From a virus: DNA of 37,862 bases. Positions 378-26,688 of the stretch are shown here, piece by piece (position 1 is the first letter of the stretch; every line of letters begins with the position of its first letter). Below the pieces are notes generated by a model. The model was given only the letters and a program-made list of their open reading frames with translations. It was not told the DNA's origin and did not search any database. The stretch lies in IMG/VR virus record IMGVR_UViG_3300044699_000041, positions 1-37,862 of that record; one strand, written 5' to 3'. The translations under genes were made by a program, and so were the position numbers.

Positions 378-440
378 CGGCGGAAGAACTCGCGTTTCTG
401 TTCCAAGCGGCAGCCTACTACCGAACGAAAGGAAGTCTGA
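374..440 (+). CDS. Possible mini-gene overlapping the preceding stop
   Basis: A GTG at 374 overlaps the TGA of the preceding gene (GTGA), the coupling style used throughout this genome. It opens VTAEELAFLFQAAAYYRTKG. With one missing or extra base it would end at the TGA at 438-440, about 22 residues. In the sequence as given it instead runs in frame into the signal-peptide protein that starts at 443, so it could also be an N-terminal extension of that gene. GGAAG at 431-435 fits a ribosome site for the ATG at 443, which favours two separate genes. Confidence 0.3.
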
Positions 441-442
441 TC

Positions 443-4413: not shown

Positions 4414-6517
4414 TGGACACGACCGAGACGCCGCAGAAGACGACGCCCGCGGCACCGAAGGGCAAATGGCGCACGAAGATCACCGCGTGCCGCAAGAAGC
4501 GCGAAAAGCTCAACAAGACGTGGCAGGTGAACGTCGACTACCGCAAGAACAAGGTCTACTCGACGACCGACGACACGCAGGACCGCATCGCGGTGCCGGT
4601 CGACTGGGCGCGCACCAAGAACAAGATCGCGCAGCTGTTCTTCCAGGTCCCGGCGATCAAGGCGAAGGCGCGTCGGCCCGAGTTCGTCGGCGCGGCCGCG
4701 CTCTACGCCTGCGGCGGTGACCTTCGAGCTGGAGCACGAAATTCGCGCGCATCACCTGATGGACGAGTGCCTGTCCGACGCGGTGAACGCCGCGGGCATG
4801 GGCATCGCGCTGATCGGGTATGACGCCACCTTCGAGGACGTGCAGGTCCCGGCGATTGACCTCGCGTCGCGCTCGCCGGAGCAGATCGCGGCGATGCAGG
4901 CACCGCCTGTCGACCCGAATGCGCCGCCACCCGAGGTGGACCCGAATGCGCCGCCCGCGCCGCCGGTGGAAGCGGCCCCGGCAGGCATCCCGCAGATGGG
5001 GAGCAAGCAGCTGGTCTACCAGTGCTACTACGGGAAGCGGCATCAGCCCCTCGCAGTTCCTCTGGCCCGCGGACTTCACCGGCTCTGATTGGCAGACGGC
5101 CGAGTGGCTCGGCTACGAGGACCGGATCCCGTTGGCGGAGGCGATCCGCCGCAAGTGGGTGGACGAAGACTACGAAAACGAGTGCTCGGACAAGCTGGAG
5201 AGTATGAGCAGCGACACCGACCAGGATCCGGACGCGGAGCCGGTCGGGAAGTACGTCAAGTTCGCGCAAATCTTCTACAAGAAGTCGGTGATCGACCCGA
5301 AAGAGAAGGACCCCCGCAAGCTCGGCATGGTCGTCATGATCGAGGGCAAGGACAAGCCCGCGGTCGACGAAGACCTCCGCTGGCAGGCGTACGACCCGCA
5401 GTCCCGCACCTGGGGCGGGCTCACGTCGTTCCCGCTGAAGGTCCTGACACTCGTGTACGTCAGCGACGAGGACGTGCCGCCCTCGGACAGCGAGATCGGC
5501 CGTCCGCAGGTCAAGGAGCTGAACAAGTCGCGCACGCAGATGCTCCAACAGCGCGACCGCAGCGCTCCGATGCGCTGGTTCGACGTCAACATGGTCGACG
5601 AGGCGATCGCCGACCAGATGGAGCATGGCACGTACCAGGGGATGATCCCCATGAACGGGCCGGGCAACAACGCGATCGGCGAGGTCGCGCGCGCGAACTA
5701 CCCACGGGAGACGTTCCAGTTCAGCAGATCATCGAGAAGGACCTCGACAGCGGCTGGTCGATGGGACCGGACCAGCTCGGCTACGCAATGGGCGGCGACA
5801 CGTCCGCGGCGGAAGCCAACCACATCGCGAACGCGGCCTCCGTGCGGCTCGACTACGAGCGCGCGAAGGTGCTGCGGTTCTTCCTGGACATCGCGGAGGG
5901 CGTCGGCGCGCTCATGCAGCTGTTCCAGGACGACGAGAAGTGGGTCGAACTCGAAGGACCGGACGGGCTGAAGCAGCTCCAGGCGTGGGACAAGAGCCGG
6001 GTGCGCGGCGACTACGCGTTCGAGGCGAAACCGGACGCCGCGGTCAAGATCGACGTCGGCCAGAAGCGCGTCGAGTCGCTCAACGTCTACAAACTGCCTC
6101 CGCCGCGACCCGCTGGCGAACGGCCAGGAGATCCTGAAGGAAGTCCTGGAGTGGCATGGCTTCGACCTGTCGAAGGCCATGGTGCCTCCGGCGCCCGCGC
6201 CGCCGAAGCCCGCAACGCTCCGGTACACGTTCAAGGGTGAGGACCTCACCAACCCGATGGTCGTGGCCCTCGTGCAGGCCAACAGCGACAAACCGCTCAC
6301 TCCGGCGGACGTCGACGCGGCCAAGAAGCTCATGGCGGACTCGGGCATCCCGCACATGCCGCCGCAGATCATGCCGGTGCCTCAGCCGAACGTGCACGGG
6401 CAGCTCCCGACGGTCGACCAGATCGCCGCGGGCAAGGCCAAGCACCCCGGACCGCCGGAGCAGGTGGATCCGCTCGGACAACGCTACGGAAACGGACCCT
6501 CGGAGGCAGCCGAATGA
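4413..6517 (+). CDS. Portal protein (about four frameshifts)
   Basis: About 701 residues once pieces are joined at about 4710, 5040, 5720 and 6100. The portal forms the dodecameric ring at the capsid vertex through which DNA enters and leaves. Support comes from its place between terminase and scaffold, its size, and portal-like stretches such as RDRSAPMRWFDVN, GTYQGMIPMNGPGN, MGGDTSAAEANHIANA and the long helix DYERAKVLRFFLDIAEG. A proline-rich loop at about residues 165-190 contains a repeated DPNAPP. The C-terminal part (about 590-701) is Pro/Ala-rich and may lie inside the head. It ends at TGA 6515-6517, overlapping the next ATG. The identification rests on context and pattern, not a diagnostic motif. 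Confidence 0.85.
4912..4955 (+). repeat. 17-bp direct repeat coding a Pro-rich loop in portal
   Basis: GACCCGAATGCGCCGCC occurs at 4912-4928 and again at 4939-4955, 27 bases apart (nine codons). It encodes DPNAPP twice in a Pro/Ala/Val-rich insertion. This looks like slippage-type expansion of a flexible surface or lumen loop. Confidence 0.75.
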
Positions 6518-6744
6518 ACCTATCCTCGGAACACCTCGCAGAACTGACGTCGGCGCTCGACGCGCAGACGGGACCGGCGCACACGAAGGCGGTGGTGGGC
6601 ACGGTGGACGAGAACGGGGCACAGGTGCTCGTCTCGTTCCACCGGGAGAGCGAAAAGGGACTGAACTGGGAGGTCCAGGCAGCAGCAGAGCACAAGTGGA
6701 CGGGGGAGGACGCCGCCAACGCGAAGGTGATCCTCAAGTGGTAG
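6514..6744 (+). CDS. Hypothetical protein, 76 aa
   Basis: Intact ORF whose ATG at 6514 overlaps the portal TGA. It begins MNLSSEHLAELTSALDAQ and contains VVGTVDENGAQVLVSFHRE, probably a short beta-hairpin. The small size and compact fold fit a virion-accessory or regulatory protein. No family recognised. It is translationally coupled to portal and overlaps the next GTG start at 6738. Confidence 0.65.
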   Translation: MNLSSEHLAELTSALDAQTGPAHTKAVVGTVDENGAQVLVSFHRESEKGLNWEVQAAAEHKWTGEDAANAKVILKW

Positions 6745-6995
6745 GGGATCCCATTCTCCAGAGGGTCGGACGCCTCTCCATGGTCGCCGTCGAGGCGATG
6801 GCGCAGATGGACGAGGACGTCAACCTCCAAGAAATGCTCTCCGCAGCGTTCGTGACGGTCGACGCGCTCATGAAAATGGCTCTCGACACGAGCCCGTCCG
6901 CGGTGGAACACAAACACAACGTCCAGGTGCTTGAAAAGCGCATCATGGAGCTTTTTGCCAGTATTTCGTTGGGTTCGGACGTCAGCAAGCACTAA
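6738..6995 (+). CDS. Hypothetical helical protein, about 85 aa
   Basis: GTG at 6738 overlaps the end of the upstream gene; an ATG at 6780 is an alternative start. The protein looks entirely helical (MAQMDEDVNLQEMLSAAFV, HNVQVLEKRIMELF), with regularly spaced hydrophobics that suit a coiled coil or helical bundle. It ends at TAA 6993-6995, just before the 12-mer at 7003-7014. Function unknown; it is the last gene of the portal transcription block. Confidence 0.55.
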   Translation: MVGDPILQRVGRLSMVAVEAMAQMDEDVNLQEMLSAAFVTVDALMKMALDTSPSAVEHKHNVQVLEKRIMELFASISLGSDVSKH

Positions 6996-7002
6996 ACGTG
7001 CC

Positions 7003-7048
7003 AAAAATGGCGCGATCGGTGGCCTTTCGGTCCGCGCCACGTCATACT
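7003..7048 (+). promoter_or_regulatory. Bipartite motif copy 1 (candidate phage promoter)
   Basis: AAAAATGGCGCG (7003-7014) is followed after 21 bases by GCCACG (7036-7041) and CATACT (7043-7048). The same 12-mer and GCCACG, spaced by 22 bases and followed by TAAACT, recur at 18743-18789. Both lie in intergenic gaps just before a gene with a strong ribosome site. CATACT could be a -10-like element, but no -35 is shared between the copies, so recognition by a modified or phage-encoded factor is possible. Confidence 0.4.
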
Positions 7049-7058
7049 GGAGGAGTAG

Positions 7059-7374
7059 ATGGTCAACAAGGTCTATCGGGAATGGGAAGTCGAGTGCGAC
7101 TGCGGCTTTTCCGGTCGGATCTGGGCCTGGGCAGATAAGCTGCCTCTCCCGTGCTCGTCCTGTGGTGGCGACACGACTGCTCGTTGACAACAGAATAGAC
7201 CGATCTGCAGGAATCGTGCCGGACGGCATCCCCGGAGGGAAGTTGATCCCGCACGCGATCTGTAACCCGGATGGCTCACCGAAGCGCTACTACTCGAACA
7301 CCGAGATCAAGCGCGCGCTGAACAAGGCCGGGTACTCGATTCTCGGAGACACACCGAAGCCGTACAAAGTCTGA
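7059..7374 (+). CDS. Zinc-ribbon protein, FmdB-like (one frameshift)
   Basis: Starts at the ATG at 7059 behind a strong GGAGGAG site. The first part (ECDCGFSGRIW...PCSSCGGDT) carries four cysteines as CxC and CxxC, a zinc ribbon. As given it stops at TGA 7185-7187. The adjoining frame continues with GIVPDGIPGGKLIPH and KRYYSNTEIKRALNKAGY to TGA at 7372-7374. This tail matches the usual C-terminus of small phage zinc-ribbon proteins (a 'YYS..EIKRAL..AGY' pattern), so I join the two across one indel near 7180-7190 to give about 105 residues. Role unknown. It is the first gene after the candidate promoter and lies just before scaffold. Confidence 0.6.
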
Positions 7375-7415
7375 AACCCTGGAGAGCACCCTCCGACACC
7401 AAAGCATGAGGACAA

Positions 7416-8431
7416 ATGGCTGACTTAGGACTGGAAGGCATCATCACGGGCGCGATGGAAAGTGCAGGCGACCCGATCGTAGACACGACAGGCGACGAGG
7501 GCTCGGCCCCCGAAGCAGAAGTAGAAGCAGCGCCGGAAGCGGACGCCGCGCCCGCCTGCCGACGCAGACCCCTGCCGCGCCGCCCGCCGAGAAGGCGCCC
7601 GTCGCGGAGGACGAAGTCCCCGACCTGACCGAGGTCGAACTCGCAGGAAAGACACTCCCGCTGCACCGCCACAAGGCCGTGCTGACGAAGGCTCGCAAGG
7701 CCGCGGAAGCGTTTGAAGCGAAGCTGAAGGAACTGGAATGGGCCACGAGCGTGCCCGACGCGAAGGACCGGCTGGCGGCGATTCAGATCGCCGACACCAA
7801 CCCGAAGCTGTTCGCGCAGGTGCTGCTCAACGACGAAAAGTTCGCGCCGATCTTCAAGGAGTTGATGGGCGCAGCAAGCCCTGCACCGGCTGCTGCAGTA
7901 CCGCCCGCGGCCAACGCCGCCGTCGCCGAAAAGCCGCAGCCAGATGTGCTGCTGCCGGACGGGACACTCGGATACTCGCAGGCGGTGCAGGACCAACTGT
8001 TGGCGTGGCACACGCAGCAGCTGGAGACGAAGTTCGGGGACATGCTCCAGGAGAAGCTGGGCAAGGTCGACCCGATCCTCAAGGAACGTGAAGCGCAGAC
8101 TGCCTACTCGAAGGAAGTCGAGAAGCAGAAGGTGATCGTGGCCCAGGCTCGCAAGAGCTTGGCCACAGTTCGAGAAGCACGAGCAGGAGATCAGGGCGCT
8201 GCTGAACAAACCCGGGCAACGAGACAGATGTCCCTCGACGAGGCTTACCGCACGGTGGTGATCCCGAAGATGCAGGCGGATCGCGACGCGATGCGGAAAG
8301 AGATTCTGGCGGAGCAAGGCAAGAAGGCCGCGGCGCCGATTGTGCCACCGGCCGGGAAGCCAGCGCCAGTCGCAGGCAAGCGGACGACGGAAGACATCAT
8401 CCGCGAGAAGATGAACGAACTCAGCGCGTAA
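7416..8431 (+). CDS. Capsid scaffold-like protein (about three frameshifts)
   Basis: About 338 residues. It has an acidic, alanine-rich N-terminus (MADLGLEGIITGAMESAG), then a charged helical core (KAVLTKARKAAEAFEAKLKE), then ALLNKPG and MSLDEAYRTVVIPKMQ, and a basic C-terminus ending KRTTEDIIREKMNELSA. The composition and the place directly before the major capsid protein are those of scaffolding proteins, whose basic C-terminal helix docks onto coat subunits. Indels are needed near 7556. A compensating pair at about 8155 and 8215 restores QFEKHEQEIRALLNKPG, which reads better than the given frame. No sequence-specific motif was used. Confidence 0.75.
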
Positions 8432-8570
8432 GGCCAGGGGCGGCGACACAGCCCTCGCGTTGACGACGACTCGACATGAACGGTCCTGACCCGATAGCGC
8501 AGGAAACGTGAATCAACCCGCGAGAGAAGGTTGAACCACAACCGAAGTTTCCGAAAGGTAGGGACCCAAC

Positions 8571-9509
8571 ATGGCTCCTTCAATCAGTCAGATCCTGTCC
8601 GTCTCGTATCCCGAAGTCGAAAGCAAGATGGCCGAAAACCAGTGGGCCGAGTCCGCGCTGATGCGCGAGTTCGAGCGCCAGGGGGTCATCGACAAGGTCA
8701 ACGGCGCCCCGACGTACGACGTTCCTCTGGACTTCCAGGCGAACGCGGGCGGCGAGTTCAACGCCACCGACCTCACCGGCGTCGACACCGCGAAGACCGA
8801 AGTCCTCTCGACCGCGCAGTACACCTCGGCGCAGCTCCAGGTGCCGCTGGTGTGGTCGAAAAAGGACGAGGCTGAGAACTCCTCGGCCAACCAGAAGGTC
8901 GCCCTCGTGAAGGCGCTCGTCGAGAACGCCCTCGCGACCCACGACGACCTGATCGAGCAGGCGCTGTTCGCGTCGAGCACCAACGGCTTCGTCGGGCTTC
9001 CCGGTCTTCTCAACGAGACGGACGGCACCGGCACGGTCGGCGGGATCAACGCATCGACCGACGTGTTCTGGAAGAACGGCTTCGACAGCGGTTCAGGCTG
9101 GAACAACGCCACGGACATCGTCGCGGCCATGACGGCGATGTACAACACCGTGATCAAGGGCAGCGGCTCGCCGATGCAGCCGAAGTTCCTGGTCGCGGAC
9201 GCCGAAACCCAGGCGATCTACGAATCGACGCAACAGGACAACATCCGGTACGTCGACTCGCGCGAAGCCGATGCGGGCTTCAAGATCCTCGCGTTCAAGA
9301 ACGCGCGGTTCGTGTTCAGCCAGTACGGCACGGACGTGATCTACTTCCTCAACCCGAAGAACCTGAAGCTCAAGGTCGTCAAACAGGCGTACCGCCTGCT
9401 CGGCGACACGATCGAGTTCCCGGATTCGGCGGGCTACATCCGGAAGGTGTTCTCGCTCCTGCAGCTGACGACCAACAACCGCTCGCGTCTGGGCGCCCTC
9501 AAGAAGTAA
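8571..9509 (+). CDS. Major capsid protein, 312 aa
   Basis: Intact gene starting at the ATG at 8571 (MAPSISQILSVSYPEVESKM). Its features match HK97-fold coat proteins of this kind of phage: a helical N-terminus, the PLVWSKKDE segment, a long central helix (KVALVKALVENALATHDD), a P-domain-like TAMYNTVIKGSGSPMQPKFLV followed by the DAETQAIYESTQQDNIRYVDS helix, and a C-terminal stretch with QAYRLLGDTIEFPDSAGYIRK. It follows scaffold after a 139-base gap (8432-8570). In that gap I see no convincing promoter; TTGACG at 8460 lacks a partner. A strong hairpin follows the gene. Confidence 0.9.
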   Translation: MAPSISQILSVSYPEVESKMAENQWAESALMREFERQGVIDKVNGAPTYDVPLDFQANAGGEFNATDLTGVDTAKTEVLSTAQYTSAQLQVPLVWSKKDEAENSSANQKVALVKALVENALATHDDLIEQALFASSTNGFVGLPGLLNETDGTGTVGGINASTDVFWKNGFDSGSGWNNATDIVAAMTAMYNTVIKGSGSPMQPKFLVADAETQAIYESTQQDNIRYVDSREADAGFKILAFKNARFVFSQYGTDVIYFLNPKNLKLKVVKQAYRLLGDTIEFPDSAGYIRKVFSLLQLTTNNRSRLGALKK

Positions 9510-9522
9510 CACCCATGGTGCC

Positions 9523-9550
9523 GGGGGGTCAGCTATTCCGCTGACCTCCC
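9523..9550 (+). promoter_or_regulatory. RNA hairpin after the capsid gene
   Basis: GGGGGGTCAGC (9523-9533) pairs with GCTGACCTCCC (9540-9550), an 11-bp stem with one G-U pair as RNA and a six-base loop (TATTCC). It starts 14 bases after the major capsid stop. No U-run follows, so it is more likely an RNA stabiliser or processing/attenuation element than a classic intrinsic terminator. Confidence 0.65.
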
Positions 9551-9584
9551 AGCCTCATTGAGCACAGAACAGGAGACAAACATC

Positions 9585-10041
9585 ATGGCACATTTCTCAG
9601 GGTCGGCCAGCAAGCTGCACCCGACCAGCAACCACACGACCGCGCAGATCACGGTCGGAACGATCGTCCGGGACAACCTCGGCAACCAGTACATGTACGT
9701 CGGCGCGTCCGGCGTTGGTGCTGCTGCTCCCCGTCAAGCACGTTGGCGGCGACTTCTCGGCCTGCGTGGTCGGGACGGCCGCGGGCAACGTCCTCGGCGT
9801 GGCTGTCGCGGAGTTCCCGACGACCGGCTTCACCTACGGCTTCATCGGCATCAAGGGCACGCATCCCACGCTGGTTCCCTCGGGAACGTCAGCGGGCGCG
9901 ATGGTCGTGGGCGGCAACGGAACGACGGCGGTAGCAGCGGCTCCGTCCGGCACGTCCGCGGCCAACTTCCCGGTGAAGGTCGGCATCACGCGCGCGGCGG
10001 CTGCCAACGCGGGCACCGCGATCGACGTGTACTGGTTCTAA
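9585..10041 (+). CDS. Putative head decoration/cement protein (one frameshift)
   Basis: About 151 residues, from the ATG at 9585 behind AGGAG (9571-9575). It reads MAHFSGSASKLHPTSNHTTA then VGTIVRDNLGNQYMYVGASG, shifts frame near 9715, and continues VKHVGGDFSACVVGTAAGNVL to DVYWF and TAA at 10039-10041. It is small, Ala/Gly/Thr-rich and beta-type, lies directly after the coat gene, and has its own ribosome site and hairpins on both sides. All this suggests a highly expressed capsid-surface cement protein. The function is inferred from position; no diagnostic motif. Confidence 0.55.
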
Positions 10042-10072
10042 TCGCATCCCGCGGTTAGAGCATCGCAACCTC

Positions 10073-10106
10073 GGAGGGCTGGGAGTCCAAAATACCCCGG
10101 CCCTCC
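10073..10106 (+). promoter_or_regulatory. RNA hairpin after the decoration gene
   Basis: GGAGGGCTGGG (10073-10083) pairs with CCCGGCCCTCC (10096-10106) as an 11-bp stem with one G-U pair and a 12-base loop. It lies in the 87-base gap before the next gene. Like the hairpin after the capsid gene it has no U-tract. The two stems bracket the decoration gene, which points to transcript processing or protection from 3' decay. Confidence 0.65.
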
Positions 10107-10128
10107 ACTCCTTCCTGGAGACGGTCAG

Positions 10129-10560
10129 ATGGCGAAAGAAGAAGTCGGCACGGAGACACTGAAAGACCTCGTCGGCAGCGTTCGAGACTTGGCGGCGGCG
10201 GCGCAGAGAACGAAGGGTTCCACCTTATCGGCGTACCTCGAAAAGAACAAGCGCAAGGTGAAGCTCAAGCAACCGTTTCACCAGAACGGCGTGCTGATCC
10301 GAATCGACCAGCTGACCGACGAACAGGTCGAACTGGTCAATCAGCTGAAGCCGGGCCGGTACAACAGCAGGAAGTGGGAAATCGTCAAGCGCAGGGATCG
10401 GTCGATCGACTTCCGATACCCGAACAAGACGATCGAGCATCGGATGCAGACCGCGTCGCAGGCAGGTGACCTGACCGGAATGCTCAAGATGATCCTCACG
10501 GAAGCAGAGACGATCAAGGCACGACGCAAGGCTGGGGAAGACGTCGACGACGACTACTGA
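10129..10560 (+). CDS. Hypothetical protein, 143 aa
   Basis: Intact ORF from the ATG at 10129 (CTGGAG at 10114-10119 upstream). The N-terminal half is helical and basic (AYLEKNKRKVKLKQPF), the centre contains IRIDQLTDEQVELVNQLKPG and a beta-rich KWEIVKRRDRSIDFRYPN, and the C-terminus is acidic (DVDDDY). Position between decoration and adaptor genes suggests a virion or virion-assembly protein. No family recognised. Confidence 0.65.
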   Translation: MAKEEVGTETLKDLVGSVRDLAAAAQRTKGSTLSAYLEKNKRKVKLKQPFHQNGVLIRIDQLTDEQVELVNQLKPGRYNSRKWEIVKRRDRSIDFRYPNKTIEHRMQTASQAGDLTGMLKMILTEAETIKARRKAGEDVDDDY

Positions 10561-10581
10561 GAGAGATAGGGGGCGGTTCAG

Positions 10582-11260
10582 ATGACATTCTTGGAGCTAC
10601 AGGATCGCATCATGGACCGCCTCAACTTGTCTTCGGACGAGGCGCGCGAGCGGATCAAGGACTTCATCAACGAGCGTTACCGCAACCTCCAGACCAGCTG
10701 TGGCCTGTCGCGCGTCCGCAAGGGCACGATCGTCATGAGCACGGTCAACGCCCAGGCCGACTACACCCCGATCGTCGACGACGACGACGACACGCTGATC
10801 ATCATCAAGCCCCTCGGTCTGAAAATCGGCACCGGCGTGAACTTCCCGCCCCTCACGGAAATCACCATCGACGCCCTGCGCCGATCGCCTTCGGCCGACC
10901 CCGCCCGGCCGCACTCCTACATCGTGACGAACTACACCGCGGACGGCTGCACGATCAAGCTCTGGCCGACGCCGGGACGACATCTACGAAATCACCATCG
11001 ACGGACTGCTCCTCGGAACGGAACTGTCCGACGACGGTGACGTCCCGGCGTTCCCCGAGGACTTCCACGACGCGCTGATCTTTGGTGCGCTCGCCGACGA
11101 GTACGACCACTTCGACAAGCCAGGGCTCGCCACGAAGCAGGACAAGAAGTTCGACCGTCGCGTCAGCGAGCTGCGCTACTTCATCGCCAAGAGCAGCATG
11201 CTGGAGCGCGTCCAGGGCCGACGCATGGAAAGCGTGTGGTGGTGGAGGCCGGTGATCTAA
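10582..11260 (+). CDS. Head-tail adaptor-like protein (one frameshift)
   Basis: About 225 residues. It starts MTFLELQDRIMDRLNLSSDE, then ARERIKDFINERYRNLQTSC. The frame shifts near 10977 and resumes as DDIYEITIDGLLLGTELSDD to PVI and TAA at 11258-11260. The C-terminal half has the pattern FPEDFHDALIFGALADEYDH...DKKFDRRVSELR, seen in adaptor/connector proteins of podoviruses and related phages that bind beneath the portal. The gene order (capsid, decoration, adaptor, large tail protein) supports this. The identification is by pattern and context. Confidence 0.65.
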
Positions 11261-11261
11261 C

Positions 11262-13195
11262 GTGGCTGCAATCATCATCAACGATTGCACCGGCGGTGAG
11301 TCGGACATCCAGGCCAGCACGATCGCCCCGAACCAAGTAGCGATAGCCAGGACGTCGACTTCTACCGGACCAATCTGTTCAACCGCCGCAACGGCTCCGT
11401 CGTGGTGATCTCCGGCCTCGACGCCGAAGTCAACTCGATGGTTGTCTACAAGCCAGAAGACGCCGTCGGGGAACTGTGGACGCTCGACGAGGCAGGCTCG
11501 TGGATCAGCTACGACACCAGCTACGTCGGCACGGAGCACACCGCGGACCCGGTGGAATTCTTCTCCCCGGAGATCGCCACCGGCGCGACGCTGCATGGTA
11601 AGCTGTTCCTCGCGGCGCAAGTCGTTGGTGTGAATCGCCTCCACGTGTGGGACGGCTCCACGCTCCGGCGCACCGGGCTCGCGCCGCCTCCCGACCAGAC
11701 GTCCGGCACACCCTCGGGCACCGGCGACATGACCGGCCTGCGCTACTACCGCGCGCGCTACATCGTCATGGACGGCGACGAGATCCTCCGCCGGTCGGAG
11801 CCGAACGCGCAGCGTAGCTACGAGGAGCCCGGCACCGAGGCGGCGATCATCACGAAGCCCTCGCCCACCGACCCGTTCGAGGGTGAGACGCACTGGGAGC
11901 TGGAGGAGTCGGACGCGGAGTTCGGCGACTACTACCGCATCGCGACGATCCCGGTGGGGACGACCACCTACACCGACCAGATCCTGCGGCCCCAGGACAT
12001 CCCGAACGCGGACGGCGCCGTGCTGGCCGCGGACATCGGCGAATACTGGTTGCAGGGCAGTTATCGTTGGGTGATCGCGGACCGCGATAGGCTGATCGGC
12101 GCGGGCAACTTCGAGGACGACACCCAGGACGCTGCGGTCGAGTGGTCGGTGGTCGGCGACGACGTCAGCGGCGTCGGCAACGACGAGCGCCGCCCGACGA
12201 CGACGGTGAACCGCCTGGACCTGGACGGCAAGGAGAGCGGCCCGATCACGGGCATGTTCAACTACGACGGCCGGATCATCGTGTTCAAGCAGCACCGCAC
12301 CTACGAGCTGACGCACACTGGCATCCGGAAGAACGCCTACCTGCCGCGCGTGCTGTCGAACACCTACGGAGCGCTCCCGTTCAGCGTGATCGAGGGCGTC
12401 GACAGCCAGGGGCGTCCGGCGCTCTACTTCATGGACCCACACCTCGGCCCGATGGCGCTGACGGTGGCCGGGTTCAAGATCCTCGCGCCACACCTTCGCG
12501 ACAAGTTCTTCAGCGAAGTGAACCAGGATGCAACGCACATTGCGAACGGGACCTATCACTCCAGGCGAAATCAAGTATGGTGGCACCTCGCCGGTGTGCG
12601 GCGTTCCGCCCGTGGTTGCTGCCCACCCTCGGACACCTTGCCGACATGGCCGTCATTTCGGTGGGTGTACGATGTGCAGACAGGGGGCACCTCCTTCCAC
12701 GTGCTGCCGCGGCTCTGCCGTGCGGCGGCGTTCTGGCCGGACAAGCCGATCATCACCGCCGAGGGCGGCGGGCTCGTTCGTTGCGACGTCGATGGAGCGC
12801 CGGACGACTACGGCTACCCGTTCCGCGCCTACGTCCGCACCAGGGCGTTCGAGACGGGCAACCTGCTCGATCGTCTCGTCGTGCGCTCGTCGGTGATCGA
12901 GGGGCGGTCGATTCAGCTGTCGCCGACGCGCCGCCTCGGGTGCTACACGCCCAGCGGCGTGACGCTTGCGATTACGATCATTCGGGATTACGGGATCGAG
13001 CGCAAGAGCGCCGCCTTCAACCTGGATCAGGAAGCGCGCGAGGAATACGTAATCAAGCGGGTCGATAACTCCCGCATGGCGGAAGCGACAGCTGTGCAGG
13101 TCGAGATCGGCGACGCAGCCGCGGTGAGTCAGTCTCCGTGGGCGCTCTACCGTGTCGCGCTCCGCACGGATTCAAACGGGCCGAACGTGTCATGA
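11262..13195 (+). CDS. Large tail (nozzle/stabilisation-like) protein (one frameshift)
   Basis: About 644 residues. GTG at 11262 lies one base after the previous stop. The frame shifts near 11340 (N-terminus VAAIIINDCTGGESD, then VDFYRTNLFNRRNGSVVVIS). The body has repeated beta-blade features (LHVWDGSTLRRTGL, YYRARYIVMDGDE, YDGRIIVFKQHRTYELTHTG), which look like a beta-propeller, as in podoviral tail nozzle proteins. It also has the phrase LPFSVIEGVDSQGRPALYFM. It follows the adaptor directly, where the nozzle gene is expected. The segment at 12590-12660 has unusual Arg/Cys/Pro composition and may hide two compensating indels. Ends at TGA 13193-13195, overlapping the next ATG. Confidence 0.65.
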
Positions 13196-13740
13196 AGGTA
13201 AGTATCAATTGGCGGCACGAACTGCACGAGACGAACCCGGCGCTCGTCAAGGAATTCGACGCGACGCATAGCGCGATCGCGGCGTGGACGAACGAGGAGC
13301 ACGACGAGGATGGCAAGCACGGCGACGTGACGGCGCTGTCGGTTGACGTCGCGGGTTCGCACGACATCGGCGGACACGCCAACATGCACGCTGGGGTGGC
13401 TATGGCCGGAGCCATCAAGGTCGAGCTGACCGAAGATGTGGTCGAGTTCAGCCCGCCGGGGATCGACGCGGCGTACTTCGTGAAGGTCGTCCCCTCGGGC
13501 ACACGCAACGTGTCGGGCATCCAGGACGGTCCGCGGCTGACACCGCGCGCGGGTCGGAAGCTGTGGCTCAAGAACGCGGCGCCTAGTGGCGTCGGAGACA
13601 TCGTGCTAAAGCACGAGGACACAACGGCACGAGAGCCTTATCGGTTCGACCTGCCGGACGGTGTTGACATGACGATCTCGTCGTCGCGCAGCGTGCACCT
13701 CTACTACGACGACGAGGCGCGGCGCTGGACGACCCCTTGA
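13192..13740 (+). CDS. Putative tail-fibre-associated protein, 182 aa
   Basis: ATG at 13192 overlaps the preceding TGA (ATGA). It opens MKVSINWRHELHETNPALV and contains FDATHSAIAAWTNEEHDEDG, a 'W-T-N...H..DG.H' layout often seen in small virion proteins before fibres. The C-terminal half is beta-rich (KLWLKNAAPSGVGDIVLKHE, RSVHLYYDDEARRW). Intact. It probably assembles on the tail or fibre base; the precise role is unknown. Confidence 0.55.
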   Translation: MKVSINWRHELHETNPALVKEFDATHSAIAAWTNEEHDEDGKHGDVTALSVDVAGSHDIGGHANMHAGVAMAGAIKVELTEDVVEFSPPGIDAAYFVKVVPSGTRNVSGIQDGPRLTPRAGRKLWLKNAAPSGVGDIVLKHEDTTAREPYRFDLPDGVDMTISSSRSVHLYYDDEARRWTTP

Positions 13741-13748
13741 GGTGAAGC

Positions 13749-14804
13749 ATGATCAGGTTTGTTGATTCATTCGCACACATGACGTCCGCGGACGTGCTGA
13801 AGAAGTGGACGAACATCTACCCAGGTGATGGCGCGCAGTCGATTCTCGCCACCTCGGGCCGCTGCTCGGATCCGTGTCTGCAGCTTACGTCGACGGCGAT
13901 CCTCTACAAGGGCATCCAGAAGCACGCCTCCGCAGGCGTGAAGCGTGGCTTCGTCGGGTTCGCGTACAAGAACGTCAGCATGCTGGGCGGCACGTCGTTC
14001 TTCAGCGTTGGCAACGGCTCCAGCCCGGAGTTTTCGCTGACCCTGACTGACGACGGTGCGATCCACGTCAAGGACGAGGACTCGGTCGACCAGACCGTGT
14101 CGGCCCCGGCCGTCATGAACAGCAACGGCTGGTACTACGTCGAGGTGGGATGGACGCAGGACGCCGCGGCGAGCCGCATCACGGTCAAGGTCAACGGGAT
14201 CACCGTGATCAACAACGTGCTGGTCGACTTCACAGTCACGCTGCACCCCACGCTGGACAACGAGTGGACGTACTTCGCGCTGGAGTGCTCGGCGAACGCG
14301 ACAAACTACTTCGGGCACGTCTACTGCTGCGACGACTACGACGACACGCTGCTCCCGGCGACCAACACGTTCCTCGGGGACGTGCGAGTCCAATACCTGC
14401 GGCCGACGACGAACGGCGCGCACACGGATTGGACGGTGAGCGGCGGCGGGTCGCACGCCAACGCGGTGGACAAGGACGCGGCCTCGGACGGCACGACGCC
14501 GAAGATCACCAGTTCGACCGTATCGAACGTCGACACGAATATCTACGAGGACCCGGTCTACACCAGCGGGACGTGCTACGGCGTGCAGTTCAACATCCTC
14601 TGCGAGAAGGACGCGGCCGGACCGCGGACGATCGCGCCGGTGGTGCTCCAGGGAGGCGTGCCCGCCTCGGGTGTCGCCCAGGCGCCGTCACTCGGCACGA
14701 AGGAATACAAGATCCAAATGTTCGATCGGAACCCGATCACCGGCGTCGCCTGGAGCTACTCCGAGGTGGCGGGTGACCAGTACGGTGTGGAGGTCGCAGG
14801 CTAA
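13749..14804 (+). CDS. Fibre/receptor-binding-like protein, 351 aa
   Basis: Intact, from the ATG at 13749. It begins MIRFVDSFAHMTSADVLKKW, a pattern typical of concanavalin/LamG-like phage structural proteins ('F.DSF.H.....KW'). The lectin-like core includes KRGFVGFAYKNVSMLGGTSF, NGWYYVEVGWTQDAAASRIT and VKVNGITVINN. The C-terminus (KEYKIQMFDRNPITGVAWSY) is another common fibre motif. A role in host-surface binding or decoration is inferred. First of several consecutive fibre-like genes; its TAA overlaps the next ATG. Confidence 0.6.
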   Translation: MIRFVDSFAHMTSADVLKKWTNIYPGDGAQSILATSGRCSDPCLQLTSTAILYKGIQKHASAGVKRGFVGFAYKNVSMLGGTSFFSVGNGSSPEFSLTLTDDGAIHVKDEDSVDQTVSAPAVMNSNGWYYVEVGWTQDAAASRITVKVNGITVINNVLVDFTVTLHPTLDNEWTYFALECSANATNYFGHVYCCDDYDDTLLPATNTFLGDVRVQYLRPTTNGAHTDWTVSGGGSHANAVDKDAASDGTTPKITSSTVSNVDTNIYEDPVYTSGTCYGVQFNILCEKDAAGPRTIAPVVLQGGVPASGVAQAPSLGTKEYKIQMFDRNPITGVAWSYSEVAGDQYGVEVAG

Positions 14805-15211
14805 TGTCACTCAATCCTAAACTTGCAAACGCCCAGGCGAACCGCGCCGCGGACGCGGTCTGCGCGCGGCTCAACAGCGGCTACCTCCGCATCTACGATG
14901 GCGCGCAGCCCGCAACTGCAGACACCGCCCTCGGGTCACAAGTGCTCCTCGCGGAGCTGCGCTTCAACGCGACGGCCTTCGGCGCTGCGGTCGCGGGCGT
15001 CGCCGCGGCGAACGCCATCACCGCTGACACCGACGCGAACGCCAACGGCACCGCGACGTGGTTCCGCGCGCTCGAATCGGACGGCTCGACCGTCGTGTTC
15101 GACGGCTCGGTCGGCACTGGCACCAACGACCTCGTGCTCGACTCCACGACGGTGACCCTGCACGGCACCGTCACCGTGTCCGCGTTCAATTACACACAGC
15201 AAAAATCATGA
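14804..15211 (+). CDS. Conserved phage structural protein, 135 aa
   Basis: ATG at 14804 overlaps the previous stop. It has the recognisable pattern LNSGYLRIYDGAQPATADTA...LLAELRFN...ATWFRALESDGSTVVFDGSVG, shared by many phage virion proteins of about 130 residues found among tail genes; their exact role is not established. Entirely beta-type, Ala/Thr-rich, intact. Overlaps the next ATG at 15208 by four bases. Confidence 0.65.
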   Translation: MSLNPKLANAQANRAADAVCARLNSGYLRIYDGAQPATADTALGSQVLLAELRFNATAFGAAVAGVAAANAITADTDANANGTATWFRALESDGSTVVFDGSVGTGTNDLVLDSTTVTLHGTVTVSAFNYTQQKS

Positions 15212-15807
15212 GCGTATCACTCGCGAAAACAGTCAACCAGACGCTCCTCGCGCTCCAAGCGCTCTCCAGCAACACGGTGGTTATTGGCAGCGCGGTGGAC
15301 GTCTCCACGAAGTTCTCCGCTTTCATTGGCATCCACTTCGGTCGCGCGACCGCGTCCGCGCTGACCACCGGCGCCAAGGTCCGCATCGAAGGTTCGATGA
15401 AGTCGAGTGGCGACGGGCACTGGTACGTTCTGGCCGAGTTCCAGTCGGCGATCGCCGCGGCGGAGTCCGAGGCGGTCAGCGGCACGGTCAACGCTGGCAC
15501 CAACGTGGTGACGGTGGCGTCGACGACCAACCTGACACAGGGGGACCTCGTCTACATCAAGAACACCACGATCGGCAACTCCGAGTGGGGCCGGGTCAAG
15601 TCGATCAGTGCGAACGTGTCGATCACCCTGGAGGACAACCTCGTGAACGCGCAGACCGGCAGCACGATCTACGACAACGCCGAACTGTGGACAGCCTACC
15701 TTGACTTGGCAGCGGTCACCCGTATACGCGCCGTCGCGGACTTCTCCGGGACGGGGCAGGCGTGCGACGTCGAAGCGCTGATGGTGACTGCGGATAGCAT
15801 AGGGTAA
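15208..15807 (+). CDS. Hypothetical virion protein, 199 aa
   Basis: ATG at 15208 overlaps the preceding TGA. The protein is beta-rich and Thr/Ser/Ala-rich. It holds a GTVNAGTNVVTVASTTNLTQ...GDLVYIKNTTIGNSEWGRV segment, a barrel-like repeat found in fibre and virion-decoration proteins. Intact. Likely part of the tail-fibre group; no specific function recognised. Confidence 0.55.
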   Translation: MSVSLAKTVNQTLLALQALSSNTVVIGSAVDVSTKFSAFIGIHFGRATASALTTGAKVRIEGSMKSSGDGHWYVLAEFQSAIAAAESEAVSGTVNAGTNVVTVASTTNLTQGDLVYIKNTTIGNSEWGRVKSISANVSITLEDNLVNAQTGSTIYDNAELWTAYLDLAAVTRIRAVADFSGTGQACDVEALMVTADSIG

Positions 15808-15811
15808 TCAC

Positions 15812-17143
15812 GTGGCTTTCGCCAACAAACCTCGCGCGGGCACCCGACCGCGGAGTACCCACCCTCACGCCGCAGGTCTGCGTCATGCCTTCGTGATGAA
15901 CGAAGGCAACGGCCGAATCACGACCGACATCGTCGGCGGGGTTCAACTCGGGTGGAATCCGTCCGCCGCGGCCTACCAGCAGCGGTGGGGCTCCAACGCC
16001 TGGGGTCCCACGATCGAGATGACGACCACTACGACGGGGTTGATCCTGCTCCCAGGACGCCTCCCGTTCGGACGGTGGTCCGACGTCGCCTCCGAGGTCA
16101 ACAAGCCATTCACTGTCGTGGTCGGCGTCACGCAGACGTCCGGGAACCAGTCCGGCTACCGGAACATCTGGGCGCAGCAGGGCTCGCTGGGGCTCTACCT
16201 CAATGGTGGCAAGATCGAATGGTATAACACCACCACGTCACGGCAGACCCTGACGCCCGACGTTCCGCACATCATCAGCGTCACCTGTGCGGGTCCCAAC
16301 ACTGGCGCGAACTTTGGCACCGGCGAGTTTGAATACCACATCGACGGACGGCTGGACTGCATCAACAACGCGACGACATGGGGCACCCGCTGGATCGCCA
16401 ACCAGCTGACTTGCGGGAACGACACGTTCTCGGAGCAGCTGATCGGGAGCGTGTCGTTCATCTACGTCTACGACCGCTACATCGGCGACGGCACGCAGAC
16501 CGCCGCGGCGTACGACCTGCAACCGACCGGCGCGCGCGGGGAAATGGCGTCGCTGCATGCGGACCCGTTCGACATGTTCCGCCCGGCGATGAAGTACTGG
16601 ATCATGGGTGCGACGGTCGCGCTGACCGTGCATGGCTCGGGCTCGGAGACGTTCCAGCACCCGCTGCTGAGCGCGACGGGCCTCTCGGTGACGAATCTGC
16701 ACGGCACCGCGGCTGAGATATTTTCACACCCATTGCTGAGTGGCGCTGGGACGTCTGTATCGAATCTGGTCGGCTCGGCGGCGCTGAGCATCGGCCATCC
16801 GACTCTGGCGGGCACCGGACTGTATTGGGACCTGACAACGATCAGCGTCTACCAGTCCGCGGTTGAGGTCACAGAGCAGACCGACCCGAACGCGATCGTC
16901 ACGCAGGTCGCAGCTGAGGTGGCGGAGCAGAAGACACCAGCGGCGGTCGTCACGCAGGTCGCGGCCGAGGTGGCGGAGCAGAAGGCACTGAACAAGGCCG
17001 TCGTCACGCAGGTGGCAGTCGAGGCGGTGTTCGCGTTCACGCAGTGCGCGGCGGAGATCCCGCCGGGCGTCTACGACTTCGATCAGTGCGAGGACTGGCC
17101 CTCGCAGGAGATCGTTCCGGGCACAGACCCGTTGGTACCGTAA
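15812..17143 (+). CDS. LamG-like fibre protein with two internal repeat arrays, 443 aa
   Basis: GTG start at 15812. Residues about 20-230 look like a LamG/concanavalin lectin domain (GLRHAFVMNEGNGRITTDIV, GLYLNGGKIEWYN, YHIDGRLDCINN). Residues about 273-338 are three copies of a roughly 22-residue unit built on 'HPLLSATGLSVTNL' (copy 2 SHPLLSGAGTSVSNL, copy 3 GHPTLAGTGLYWDL). Residues about 345-410 repeat a 17-18-residue VTQVAAEVAEQK unit. The C-terminus, YDFDQCEDWPSQEIVPGTDP, is shared in pattern with the next protein. Such repeats suggest a shaft joined to an attachment tag. Intact; TAA overlaps the next ATG. Confidence 0.65.
   Translation: MAFANKPRAGTRPRSTHPHAAGLRHAFVMNEGNGRITTDIVGGVQLGWNPSAAAYQQRWGSNAWGPTIEMTTTTTGLILLPGRLPFGRWSDVASEVNKPFTVVVGVTQTSGNQSGYRNIWAQQGSLGLYLNGGKIEWYNTTTSRQTLTPDVPHIISVTCAGPNTGANFGTGEFEYHIDGRLDCINNATTWGTRWIANQLTCGNDTFSEQLIGSVSFIYVYDRYIGDGTQTAAAYDLQPTGARGEMASLHADPFDMFRPAMKYWIMGATVALTVHGSGSETFQHPLLSATGLSVTNLHGTAAEIFSHPLLSGAGTSVSNLVGSAALSIGHPTLAGTGLYWDLTTISVYQSAVEVTEQTDPNAIVTQVAAEVAEQKTPAAVVTQVAAEVAEQKALNKAVVTQVAVEAVFAFTQCAAEIPPGVYDFDQCEDWPSQEIVPGTDPLVP
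16629..16826 (+). repeat. Three degenerate 66-69-bp coding repeats
   Basis: Units at about 16629-16697, 16698-16766 and 16767-16826 encode '(G)xxxxxxHPLLSxxGxSVxNL'-type segments. The protein is better conserved than the DNA, so selection on a repeated beta structure is likely. Confidence 0.65.
16898..17038 (+). repeat. Tandem 51-54-bp coding repeats (VTQVAAEVAEQ)
   Basis: Units start at 16898, 16949 and 17003 with GTCACGCAGGT, spaced 51 and 54 bases apart; a weaker unit precedes them. Units one and two both encode VTQVAAEVAEQK with only a few synonymous changes, indicating recent duplication. The heptad-like Val/Ala spacing could form a beta-helix or coiled rod. Confidence 0.7.
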
Positions 17144-18744
17144 TGGCACACTATCGAGGCATTTTCGGATTCGAGGGCGGCGACGCGTCCGGGGTGACGC
17201 TCACCGGCGGCAGCGTCACAGCGCTGGCGGCGCGCACGGGCGGCAGTGCGTACGGGTTCCGGAACACGGTCAACGGCGGCGTCGGACAGCTGCCGATCCT
17301 CGTGCCGTCCACGGGGCTGTCCTACGGCGACAACTACGACGTCAAGCTGCGCGTGCACTTCCGCGTGAACGCCTACCCTGGCACCACCAACACCCAGGTG
17401 TTCCGCATGGGCTCCAACGTCGGGAGCACGCCTGCGCTGCAGATGGACACTTCGGGACACATACGGTTCCTCGCGCGCGGGAGTCTCACAACCGGCTACA
17501 GCACGGACCCGCTGACGATCGGGGAATACTACCAAGCGGACGTCCGTTGCTACGGCTACGTCGGCGACGGCACGAACGCTGGGCGCCGGAAGGAGACCAT
17601 CAAGGTCTACGACTCCAACGGCGTGTTGGTGTTCTCCGCGGGGAACCCGGTCCAGTCGGACGGCACACACGCGACGATCACGCCCGCCCTCGGCGATTAT
17701 GGTGGCCCGGCTGGAGACGGCAGCACCTGCTCGGTGGCGAAGGTGACTCAAGGCAAAGTCATTGTGGGTCCCGGATTCGCCGGGATCTCCGCAGGCTGGG
17801 TCAAAGCCTACGAGCACACGGGGGCGACCCTCGTGATCCACGGTGTCAACTTCACCGGCTTCCCGCCCGCCTCGGCCAGCTACTTTCAGACGGACTGGAC
17901 GGCGGACGGTGTGAGCGAGAACACCACAGTTGTGAAAGACGCATGCGACTTCCCCGCGAACTTCGCCGGGCACATGCACGAGACCGGCGAACTCTACCCG
18001 TTCTACTCCGGGATCGATGAACACGGGGACTACACCTGGGAGGACATCGGCACGTTTCGCCTCCAGACCGCGCAGCAGCTGGACATGGCGACGGTGCTCC
18101 TCGGCAGCGACGCGAATGTCACACGGAACTTCGACTACGACGACCTGTGGTTCGACGTGAAGATCGGCGACGACGTGGATGGCAGCCCGTCGTTCCCGTC
18201 CGGCACGCACATCACGCGCAACGACGTGACGGGCCAGGGACCCTCCGACCAGTTCAGCCCAGCGAGTGCATACAACCGGATCTCCGAGGTGCCCCTCGGG
18301 TCAAATACGATCGCGGGCACGTACGGACAGGCCACCGACTACACGCACCAGCAGATCGACGGGTCGGTCCCGAAGATCGAGCACGTGCGCGTCTACATGA
18401 ACGCGCTGGACAGCGGCGGCGCGGGCGACCACTACGTGCTGTTCGCCGGGGTGCAGTATGACGTGGTAGCGGGCGCGTCGATCGCGGCGGGCTCCGGCAC
18501 GATCGTGGCGGACCGCATCGGCGACATGGCGCGGCAGAATTTCAACGAGGCGACGGTTGGCGCCCAGAACAACGAGTCCGGGCACACGCTGACGATCGGC
18601 AACATCTACATGGAGGTGCTGAACGCCCCGTCGGTCGTGATTGCACCGTTCTATTTCGATACATGCACGGAGTGGCCGTCTCAGGAAGTGGACCCCGGAA
18701 CCGACCCCCTGAGCCCGGTCGACTCACTGTTCGAGGAATGCTAA
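17143..18744 (+). CDS. Fibre/receptor-binding-like protein, 533 aa
   Basis: ATG at 17143 overlaps the previous TAA. It begins MAHYRGIFGFEGGDASGVTL. The first about 230 residues are lectin-like (VKLRVHFRVNAYPGTTNTQV, LQMDTSGHIRFLARGSL, GRRKETIKVYDSNGV). The middle (FQTDWTADGVSENTTVV, NFDYDDLWFDVKIGDDVDGS) is another beta domain. The end has FYFDTCTEWPSQEVDPGTDP, nearly the same tag as its upstream neighbour, then an extra EEC tail. Intact. It ends the fibre block; the candidate promoter at 18743 overlaps its last codon. Confidence 0.6.
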   Translation: MAHYRGIFGFEGGDASGVTLTGGSVTALAARTGGSAYGFRNTVNGGVGQLPILVPSTGLSYGDNYDVKLRVHFRVNAYPGTTNTQVFRMGSNVGSTPALQMDTSGHIRFLARGSLTTGYSTDPLTIGEYYQADVRCYGYVGDGTNAGRRKETIKVYDSNGVLVFSAGNPVQSDGTHATITPALGDYGGPAGDGSTCSVAKVTQGKVIVGPGFAGISAGWVKAYEHTGATLVIHGVNFTGFPPASASYFQTDWTADGVSENTTVVKDACDFPANFAGHMHETGELYPFYSGIDEHGDYTWEDIGTFRLQTAQQLDMATVLLGSDANVTRNFDYDDLWFDVKIGDDVDGSPSFPSGTHITRNDVTGQGPSDQFSPASAYNRISEVPLGSNTIAGTYGQATDYTHQQIDGSVPKIEHVRVYMNALDSGGAGDHYVLFAGVQYDVVAGASIAAGSGTIVADRIGDMARQNFNEATVGAQNNESGHTLTIGNIYMEVLNAPSVVIAPFYFDTCTEWPSQEVDPGTDPLSPVDSLFEEC

Positions 18745-18789
18745 AAATGGCGCGGGAAGTTGTAAGCAATGCCTGTGCCACGGTAAACT
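18743..18789 (+). promoter_or_regulatory. Bipartite motif copy 2 (candidate phage promoter)
   Basis: AAAAATGGCGCG at 18743-18754 and GCCACG at 18777-18782, then TAAACT at 18784-18789, repeat the layout at 7003-7048. Here a TTGTAA at 18760-18765 lies 18 bases before TAAACT, a passable sigma70-like pair, though copy 1 lacks such a -35. The region is AT-rich for this genome and precedes a gene with a GGAGG ribosome site. Confidence 0.42.
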
Positions 18790-18816
18790 ATTAAGATAGA
18801 CGGAGGTTTCCCACCC

Positions 18817-19749
18817 ATGGCCTATGGCGATTACAATCCCGAAGTCGAGGACTACCGCGCCACTGGTGCGGGGATCCCGATCAACCCAGCGGCCGCGGCG
18901 ATCCCCGGCACCAGCGCCCCGAAGCTCTCGGAGCAGGCGGTCTACGACCAGTACCGGGCGTCCAACCCCAACCCAGGCAGTGACTTCAGTGGCCTCATCG
19001 ACGCGTACAAGGCCGCGGGCTACGACGCCGGGAACTACATGTACGGCGACACCAAGAGCGGCAACGAGATCATGGTGAACGGCCAGAAGCGCAAAATGAC
19101 CGTCGGCGACCTCGGCCAGAACGGCACCAGCTGGTACAACTGGGGCGAGAACGACGGCGGGGGCAATCCGGCGGGCGCAGCGCTCGGTGGCATCGGCAGC
19201 GCCATGGCGATCCCGCAGGGCGGGAACTACGCCCAGAACACCGACAAGCTCAACTCGGTGTGGGACCAGCTGCTGGCCCAGTCGAAGATGGGTGAGAAAA
19301 TCGACACCAACGACCCGGTCTTCCGGCAGCAGGCCGACCGCTACGCCGCGCAGGTGGAGCGCTCCCGGCGTAATGCGGTCGCCGACAACGCCGAGAAGAT
19401 GTCCTCGCAGATGCTCGGTGGCAGTGGCGCCGAAGCGGTGGCGAACCGTGGCATCAACGAGCAGGCCGGGCAGGCGGCGGGACAGTTCGAGGCGCAGCTG
19501 GCCGCGAAGGAGCTGCAGAGCCGCCGGGACCGCATCCAGCAGGCGCTGGCGCTCATGGCCAACATGGGCAACCAGGAGCAACAGCGTGCACTGACCCAGG
19601 AACTGGGCCACATTGACGCGCAGCTGCGCGCCGCGGGCCTCGCGAGCAACGAGCGCATCGCCAACAACAACCTCGGATTCAACTACAGCAACCTGGAGGC
19701 GAACCAGAACAACCTCGCCCTCCGCGCCGCGCTGGGGGAGAATTTCTAA
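18817..19749 (+). CDS. Putative ejection (internal virion) protein, 310 aa
   Basis: ATG at 18817, GGAGG ten bases upstream. The N-terminal third is Gly/Pro/Asn-rich (VYDQYRASNPNPGSDFSGLI); the last 150 residues are a long Ala/Gln/Asn-rich helix (RYAAQVERSRRNAVADNAEK, QQALALMANMGNQEQQRALT). That composition and the order (three such genes, then a transglycosylase fusion) match podoviral ejection proteins, which leave the head with DNA and build a channel through the cell envelope. Intact; function inferred. Confidence 0.6.
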   Translation: MAYGDYNPEVEDYRATGAGIPINPAAAAIPGTSAPKLSEQAVYDQYRASNPNPGSDFSGLIDAYKAAGYDAGNYMYGDTKSGNEIMVNGQKRKMTVGDLGQNGTSWYNWGENDGGGNPAGAALGGIGSAMAIPQGGNYAQNTDKLNSVWDQLLAQSKMGEKIDTNDPVFRQQADRYAAQVERSRRNAVADNAEKMSSQMLGGSGAEAVANRGINEQAGQAAGQFEAQLAAKELQSRRDRIQQALALMANMGNQEQQRALTQELGHIDAQLRAAGLASNERIANNNLGFNYSNLEANQNNLALRAALGENF

Positions 19750-20654
19750 TGGGCTTCTGGTCAACTCTTGGCAAAATCGGGCTGATCGCGGGCGGCGGGA
19801 TCGCGACCGCCCTGACGGCGGGCGCCGCATCTCCCTTGTTGGCGACAGCGATCGGTGCTGGAATTGGCGCTGGTACCGGCGCAGGCACCGCGGCGATCGA
19901 CCACAAGAACATCTGGAAGGGCATGGCGACCGGCGCGGCGCTCGGCGGCGTCGGCGGTGGACTCGGCGCGGTGGCCAAAGGTGCTGGCGCGGCCAAGGAC
20001 GGGCTGGAGTCTGTCTCCGGCCTCGTGGGTGAAGGCGGAAATGTCGTCTCCTCGGCGACCCCCGGTTTCATCGACTCGCTGAAGCAGGCTGGACTGCAGA
20101 TGGTGACCGACCCGAAGACGGGGAAGGTCGACGTGACTCGAATCCTCAACGCGGCCGGTGACACGTCCGGCGCTGTCGCGCAGGGCATGGCGGCGGGGCG
20201 CGACAAGGAAGTGCAGAACTACAACACGGTCAACAACGCGGACATCGCCCAGCGCACGTTCGGCCTGACGTCACGCGGCCGTAACTACAGCGACGCGATG
20301 CGCTCGGCGCTCGCCATGAACATGAAGGACGCGAGCTTCGCTCGTCCCGAAGGCGTGCCGGACATCAAGATGCAGGGCGGGGCGAAGCCGTCTTCGCTCG
20401 GCCTCGAAGGCATGCTCGCCGCGCGCGCGATGAACAAGCAGGCGCAGGCTGGCTTGGACAACCCGGCGACGTTCAACCCGCTGCCGGACACCAAGGCCGG
20501 AGCCCTGGAGAACACCCTCGGGACCGTCGGCGCCGTCTCGAAGGGCATCGGCACGATCACCGCGGACCAGAACCAGAGCGTGATCAACGACCTCGTGAAG
20601 CAACTGCTCGCGAAGCAGCAGGCGCAGGACGGCACCACCGAGGAGAAGGGGTAA
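19749..20654 (+). CDS. Putative ejection protein with Gly-rich membrane segments, 301 aa
   Basis: ATG at 19749 overlaps the preceding TAA. Residues about 7-45 (IGLIAGGGIATALTAGAASP...IGAGIGAGTGAG) and about 57-77 are Gly/Ala-rich hydrophobic segments able to insert in membranes. The rest is helical and Ala/Gln-rich, ending KQLLAKQQAQDGTTEEKG. This fits an internal virion protein of an ejection channel. Intact; no family name recognised. Confidence 0.6.
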   Translation: MGFWSTLGKIGLIAGGGIATALTAGAASPLLATAIGAGIGAGTGAGTAAIDHKNIWKGMATGAALGGVGGGLGAVAKGAGAAKDGLESVSGLVGEGGNVVSSATPGFIDSLKQAGLQMVTDPKTGKVDVTRILNAAGDTSGAVAQGMAAGRDKEVQNYNTVNNADIAQRTFGLTSRGRNYSDAMRSALAMNMKDASFARPEGVPDIKMQGGAKPSSLGLEGMLAARAMNKQAQAGLDNPATFNPLPDTKAGALENTLGTVGAVSKGIGTITADQNQSVINDLVKQLLAKQQAQDGTTEEKG

Positions 20655-24537: not shown

Positions 24538-24774
24538 TCGGCGTAGCGGATCTTGACCACCATCGTCTGCTTGCGGCGGTAGACGATCTTCGACTTCTCG
24601 ATCGTGTCGGTGACGAGCCCCTTCCGGTAGGTGATCTTCACCTGCGTGTCCGGTCTCCTCGAACGTGTCCTCGGGTTCGAGGTTGTAGTCCTGAGCGCTC
24701 CCGCCCTCGAAGAAGAACGACAGCCGCTCGATCGTCTGGTGGGTCGGGCGGTTGAGCTTATCTATAGGGTCCAT
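24534..24774 (-). CDS. Hypothetical protein, about 80 aa (one frameshift)
   Basis: Starts MDPIDKLNRPTHQTIERLSF at 24774, overlapping the upstream stop by 13 bases. The frame shifts near 24650 and reads VKITYRKGLVTDTIEKSKIV to YAD and TAG at 24534-24536. The C-terminal half is a basic beta-strand pattern. Last gene of the leftward arm. No family recognised. Confidence 0.5.
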
Positions 24775-26663: not shown

Positions 26664-26688
26664 TTGTGATTCCGCGGTCCGAGAGAAT

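Follow-up and report, generated by a model that had tools for sequence, protein, structure and literature searches.

The late promoters of P2-type phages occur in few copies, one per late operon, and carry an imperfect dyad 5' of a weak or absent -35 element; one regulator (Ogr, Delta or B) serves all late operons, and its sites read TGT-N12-ACA, with variants such as TGTTGT-N13-ACAACA (PMC3931495, PMC5694545). In phages 7-11 and phiEco32, late promoters with elements of about 12 bases (TGTGATGTTATA) are read by a phage sigma factor, and both a sigma and an anti-sigma factor are encoded (PMC4331800). Here we analyse a repeated element in a stretch of viral DNA, IMG/VR record IMGVR_UViG_3300044699_000041, an incomplete contig of 37,862 bases that we call the window. 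Its two copies, AAAAATGGCGCG at 7003 (copy 1) and at 18743 (copy 2), stand in intergenic gaps ahead of two blocks of virion genes. From sequence comparison we favour, with a probability of about 0.5, the reading that both gaps hold sigma-70-type late promoters for virion sub-operons, each with an upstream operator for a candidate dimeric regulator.

We compared four gaps: those of copy 1 and copy 2, and those of two relatives, L002 and L033. If read in this way, the locus resembles the P2-type systems in having late promoters in few copies, each preceded by an activator dyad. It differs from them in that TGT-N12-ACA is absent from all four gaps and in the protein encoded next to copy 1, a zinc-ribbon protein with an arrangement of about C-X1-C-X16-C-X2-C, unlike the CX2CX22CX4C of P2 Ogr; no kinship with P2 was seen. 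This protein had no Pfam match, and no Ogr family was found by Pfam in the scanned parts of the window (three minus-strand frames of 24700-37862, one plus-strand frame of 1-13500 and single plus-strand open reading frames (ORFs), so that the plus-strand frames are only partly covered), the cysteine pattern being looked at in that protein only. With phages 7-11 and phiEco32 the window shares the placing of structural genes on one strand and replication genes on the other, and a low-copy intergenic motif that emerges from gap comparison (PMC4331800), and it differs from them in its dyad upstream of a sigma-70-like core and in that no sigma gene was found in the scanned parts.

A preliminary description of this DNA had reported AAAAATGGCGCG followed after 21 or 22 bases by GCCACG and then by CATACT or TAAACT, both copies lying in gaps directly 3' of a stop codon and 5' of a gene with a good ribosome site, and we found its coordinates and placement to be accurate. 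Across the window, AAAAATGGCGCG has two exact copies and no further place with up to one mismatch; the next-best matches, with two mismatches, are all coding (16298, 27197 and 32172). Its leftward extension, TGCYAAAAATGGCRCG, also has two exact matches, the next having three mismatches. The bipartite form alone is uninformative, because 12+6 pairs occur often in a window so rich in coding sequence (20 pairs, mostly coding repeats, versus about 4 in Markov sequences). For two gaps of such size and composition, the probability of sharing any exact 12-mer is 0.00005-0.00025, which after correction for about 100 gap pairs leaves, by our own estimate, a chance of roughly 0.5-2.5%. Over the full register, which starts at TGCY, ends with the last hexamer and includes one 1-base gap, 31 of 51 positions are identical, a value reached in 0 of 20,000 shuffles; plain local alignment of the two gaps, with stop-codon bases excluded, was mildly significant only (12 of 600 shuffles). 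We regard the repeat at both gaps as confirmed. Searching IMG/VR with the exact bipartite pattern gave 15 matches outside the window, which by eye were unrelated and mostly coding and which we estimate to be about the number expected by chance, and searching it with CGTGCCAAAAATGGCRCG returned L002 and five near-identical matches in apparently unrelated coding sequence. The difference between the N21 and N22 spacings could be an assembly error, like an extra T at about 7178 described below.

The closest relative, L002, is a 10.8-kb fragment with a capsid protein 94% identical to that of the window. Its first copy reads CGTGCCAAAAATGGCACG...CATACTGGAGGAGTAG, keeping 11 of the 12 bases of AAAAATGGCGCG at the same distance from CATACT. 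Aligned without indels, copy 1 and L002 agree at 23 of 25 positions in 6996-7020, at 5 of 19 in 7021-7039, which is the random level, and at 18 of 19 in 7040-7058. Such a run of conserved, random and again conserved sequence, unchanged in length, indicates two constrained blocks at a fixed distance. The view of these sites as low-copy cis-elements, bound to gaps ahead of virion blocks, is supported, and sequence, place and spacing are retained in this one close relative. The expectation that relatives would share the motif held for the first copy in L002, in place and spacing alike, and failed for most relatives near 50% capsid identity (L004, L005, L021-L025 and L035-L037), in which the zinc-ribbon gene follows with hardly any gap or none, or the motif cannot be recognised, so that the element belongs to a narrow lineage. 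Scans for relatives through the gene after copy 2 or through 13749-14804 found none and a scan with 19749-20654 gave one weak match, which leaves copy 2 with no ortholog for comparison.

The AAAAATGG block is one half of a dyad, CGTGCCA-AAAA-TGGCRCG, with AAAAATGGCRCG as the right half; this dyad is perfect in L002 (CGTGCCA-AAAA-TGGCACG), has one departure in copy 1 and has a degenerate left half in copy 2. TGGCRCR clusters at the two gaps, since of its 42 occurrences on the two strands of the window three fall in the copy 1 gap and two in the copy 2 gap, and the longer TGGCRCG-N5-TKGY is common to copy 1, copy 2 and L002. GCCACG, which had been put forward as a promoter element, is the end of a further inverted copy of the half-site (7033-7039 and 18774-18780); as a second inverted-repeat arm, lying mostly in the randomised stretch and lost in L002, it is not supported in that role. 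A minus-strand TGGCACG-N5-TGGC at 37808-37823 was dismissed, since an A-tract is missing and matches of this kind occur about as often as chance predicts. The more distant L033, whose portal-region protein is 61% identical, has an orthologous gap of 62 bases (63 in the window). This gap carries, immediately 3' of the stop codon, a different dyad, GTCTCG-TTTT-CGAGAC, with unrelated letters, although perfect dyads of this kind occur about 7 times per 10 kb in L033. Read from the sequences, TTGT begins 14 bases past the centre of the dyad in L002, L033 and copy 2.

Downstream of the dyads, TTGTGT in L002, TTGTAT in L033 and TTGTAA in copy 2 precede CATACT, GATAAC and TAAACT by 17, 17 and 18 bases, respectively. 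The arrangement TTG-N17/18-hexamer, with at least 4 of 6 positions matching TATAAT, has a background of 0.012 per 63 bases of one strand of the sequences compared, yet three of the four gaps (copy 2, L002 and L033) have it on their plus strand, and TTGTRD-N16-18 followed by a 4/6 hexamer has a single match in the whole window, copy 2. The earlier statement that no -35 element is shared is correct within the window, where copy 1 has TGGCCT, and breaks down across the relatives, since copy 2, L002 and L033 all carry TTGTRW. A sigma-70 -35/-10 pattern is weakly developed in these three gaps and missing from copy 1; a stricter 9-of-12 sigma-70 promoter scan found neither window site.

In the reading we favour, each gap would start transcription of a virion sub-operon from a weak sigma-70-type core consisting of TTGTRW, 17-18 bases and a YAWACT-like hexamer. 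An AT-centred dyad, its centre 14 bases 5' of the -35 element and about -50 from the inferred start, would offer half-sites one helical turn apart, in this lineage CGTGCCA-AAAA-TGGCRCG. The dyad would serve as binding site for a dimeric regulator, most likely a phage product, that switches the weak promoter late in infection, and an activator of this kind would be essential at copy 1, which is without the -35 element seen in L002. It is from this arrangement that we infer transcript starts in the gaps, protein binding, and the regulator's identity and sign of action. The 12-mer had been suggested to be bound by a phage factor replacing -35 recognition; the dyad and its one-turn spacing suit binding, whereas replacement could apply at most to copy 1. 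A bolder version, which we consider rather doubtful, is that the geometry of the operator (centre 14 bases 5' of -35, one-turn half-sites, AT centre) stays constant while its sequence is exchanged completely from one relative to another, making it a late-gene switch of an undescribed lineage; geometry kept with letters replaced would imply a dimeric phage regulator evolving together with its sites.

Several observations weigh against a promoter. The background given above for TTG-N17/18-hexamer is an optimistic figure, because TTGTRW was noticed before testing. The -10-like hexamer of copy 1, L002 and L033 lies 9-12 bases 5' of the start codon and adjoins the ribosome site, so that transcription beginning 6-8 bases past the hexamer would leave this conserved site out of the transcript. 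At copy 1, GGAGGAG begins right after CATACT, and transcripts beginning at 7053-7058 would start within that site or beyond it. One way out is that translation of the first gene relies on read-through or leaderless transcripts; the other is that the hexamer does not serve as a -10 element. Copy 2 has no such conflict. Copy 1 has TGGCCT in place of a -35 element, and the left half of the copy 2 dyad is degenerate. L002 is the sole close relative, and it ends before copy 2. Finally, no regulator gene was recognised by Pfam in the minus-strand cluster (three frames, 24700-37862) down to E = 1.

A further point against a promoter is that the dyads can fold as RNA, and the strongest rival, possible though unlikely, is an RNA hairpin just 3' of the upstream stop codon that could serve as a weak or factor-dependent terminator, an end protector or a processing site before the next ribosome site. 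Each gap has a GC-rich stem of 6-9 bp, at 6997-7014 in copy 1 and the equivalent place in L002, at 18748-18780 in copy 2 and in GTCTCG-TTTT-CGAGAC of L033, and the positions that break the symmetry, in copy 1 and within the 5-bp core of the degenerate dyad of copy 2, would still allow G-U pairs. A GC stem right after a stop codon is also what intrinsic terminators have. In L003, a more distant relative, the gap orthologous to copy 1 (4400-4462) holds a perfect 13-bp hairpin, AAGAAGGTGGGAC-CTAC-GTCCCACCTTCTT, right after the stop and with a T-rich tail, which by its sequence resembles a classical, bidirectional terminator and makes terminator ancestry of the hairpin a serious rival. Unlike intrinsic terminators, however, the gaps have no plus-strand T-run after the stem; the terminator scan lists neither site, and an Rfam scan of the window returned only a tRNA and matched neither motif gap. 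No one stem is common to all gaps (copy 1 shares its strong left stem with L002 and its strong right stem with copy 2), folding is modestly above shuffles (z -1.4 to -2.6), and a hairpin has no need of conserved letters or of a fixed distance to TTGT.

It is distinctly less probable that the gaps are promoters for a phage-encoded sigma factor or another non-sigma-70 polymerase, with AAAAATGGCRCG within the core site. This possibility includes a -24 box of the sigma-54 type: the sigma-54 promoter consensus is TGGCACG-N4-TTGCW, and L002 has TGGCACG where copies 1 and 2 have TGGCGCG. The block TGGCRCG-N5-TKGY shared by copy 1, copy 2 and L002 would suit such a core site, and promoters read by phage sigma factors typically have well-conserved intergenic motifs in low copy number (PMC4331800). 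The invariant GG-N10-GC of sigma-54 promoters is nevertheless absent from the plus strand of all four gaps, and L033 is without such a box at that place. Neither a T7-type polymerase nor a sigma family was found by Pfam in three frames of the minus-strand cluster of this incomplete contig, and the scanned parts as a whole gave no T7-type polymerase gene and, by Pfam and PHROGs, no sigma factor or RNA polymerase. Minus-strand sigma-54-like sites do occur in both motif gaps, TGGCACAGGCATTGC (18766-18780) and TGGCACGTTTAGTGC (6989-7003), at non-equivalent positions, as are the minus-strand GG-N10-GC matches in copy 2 and L002; we rejected these sites as by-products of symmetry because they use different repeat arms.

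It is improbable, too, that the repeat is boundary sequence between genes that regulates nothing, a short linker, duplicated or recombining, 3' of stop codons. Both copies adjoin stop codons, there are only two of them and the lineage is narrow, but conservation with L002 in two blocks around a randomised spacer of constant length is unexpected of a passive linker. Chance, for which the frequency of bipartite 12+6 repeats in the window speaks, is very unlikely given the low gap-restricted probability, the shuffles of the full register and the retention of the first copy in L002.

Table 1. Positions of the two motif gaps and of neighbouring genes in the window
Feature	Position	Strand	Remarks
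Stop codon TAA upstream of copy 1	6993-6995	+	
Copy 1 dyad CGTGCCA-AAAA-TGGCGCG	6997-7014	+	contains AAAAATGGCGCG (7003-7014); one-turn spacing of half-sites; T:G departure at one position
TGGCCT at the -35 place	7020-7025	+	aligned L002 bases TTGTGT; degenerate in copy 1
Third TGGCRCR half-site (TGGCGCG)	7033-7039	-	overlaps GCCACG; pairing with 7008-7014 possible; lost in L002
-10-like CATACT	7043-7048	+	ribosome site directly after; kept in L002
Ribosome site GGAGGAG of zinc-ribbon gene	7049-7055	+	
Zinc-ribbon gene, 3' of copy 1	7059-7374	+	104 aa in L002; 42-aa frame in window
Upstream box TGCTAAAAATGGCGCG of copy 2	18739-18754	+	left part overlaps last codon and stop of preceding gene
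Stop codon TAA of preceding gene	18742-18744	+	overlaps motif
-35-like TTGTAA	18760-18765	+	14 bases after dyad centre
Second TGGCRCR half-site (TGGCACA)	18774-18780	-	pairs with 18748-18754
-10-like TAAACT	18784-18789	+	18 bases after TTGTAA
Ribosome site GGAGG	18802-18806	+	would be retained by a start near 18795-18797
First gene 3' of copy 2	18817-19749	+	310 aa, no family match
Terminase gene	2844-3902	+	Terminase_3; plus-strand genes run from here through the capsid gene to about 24.7 kb
Major capsid protein gene, block after copy 1	8571-9509	+	phrog_9953, E 1.7e-27
Replication genes (Prim-Pol primase, helicase, exonuclease, dGTP-hydrolase-like)	inward from right end	-	

Searches of phage records gave no DNA match to the window, capsid proteins of at most 27% identity and no match to the portal-region protein, and capsid alignment against GTDB genomes found nothing. 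Relative to L002, an extra T at about 7178 disrupts the 104-aa zinc-ribbon gene and, judged from the sequence, is probably an assembly error. The phrog_62 helicase matches on the minus strand run through three reading frames at about 32000-33920, which suggests several frameshifts, as assembly errors or in a decayed gene. A 14-pair terminator-like hairpin (24726-24757) lies near the convergence of the plus- and minus-strand gene clusters, a tRNA-Asn (GTT) gene (26689-26763, minus strand) stands amid minus-strand genes, and the virion gene at 15896-17143 contains three imperfect tandem copies of a unit of 51-54 bases at 16892-17042.

P2-like and other phages already provide examples of the general principle, in which a small number of conserved late promoters lie between genes, with an activator site upstream, and the two gaps described here are, at about even odds, a probable additional example of regulated phage late promoters. 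If this is right, they would pinpoint the late promoters used by an uncultured phage group that has no close named relatives, and would offer a test by which its late regulator could be found.

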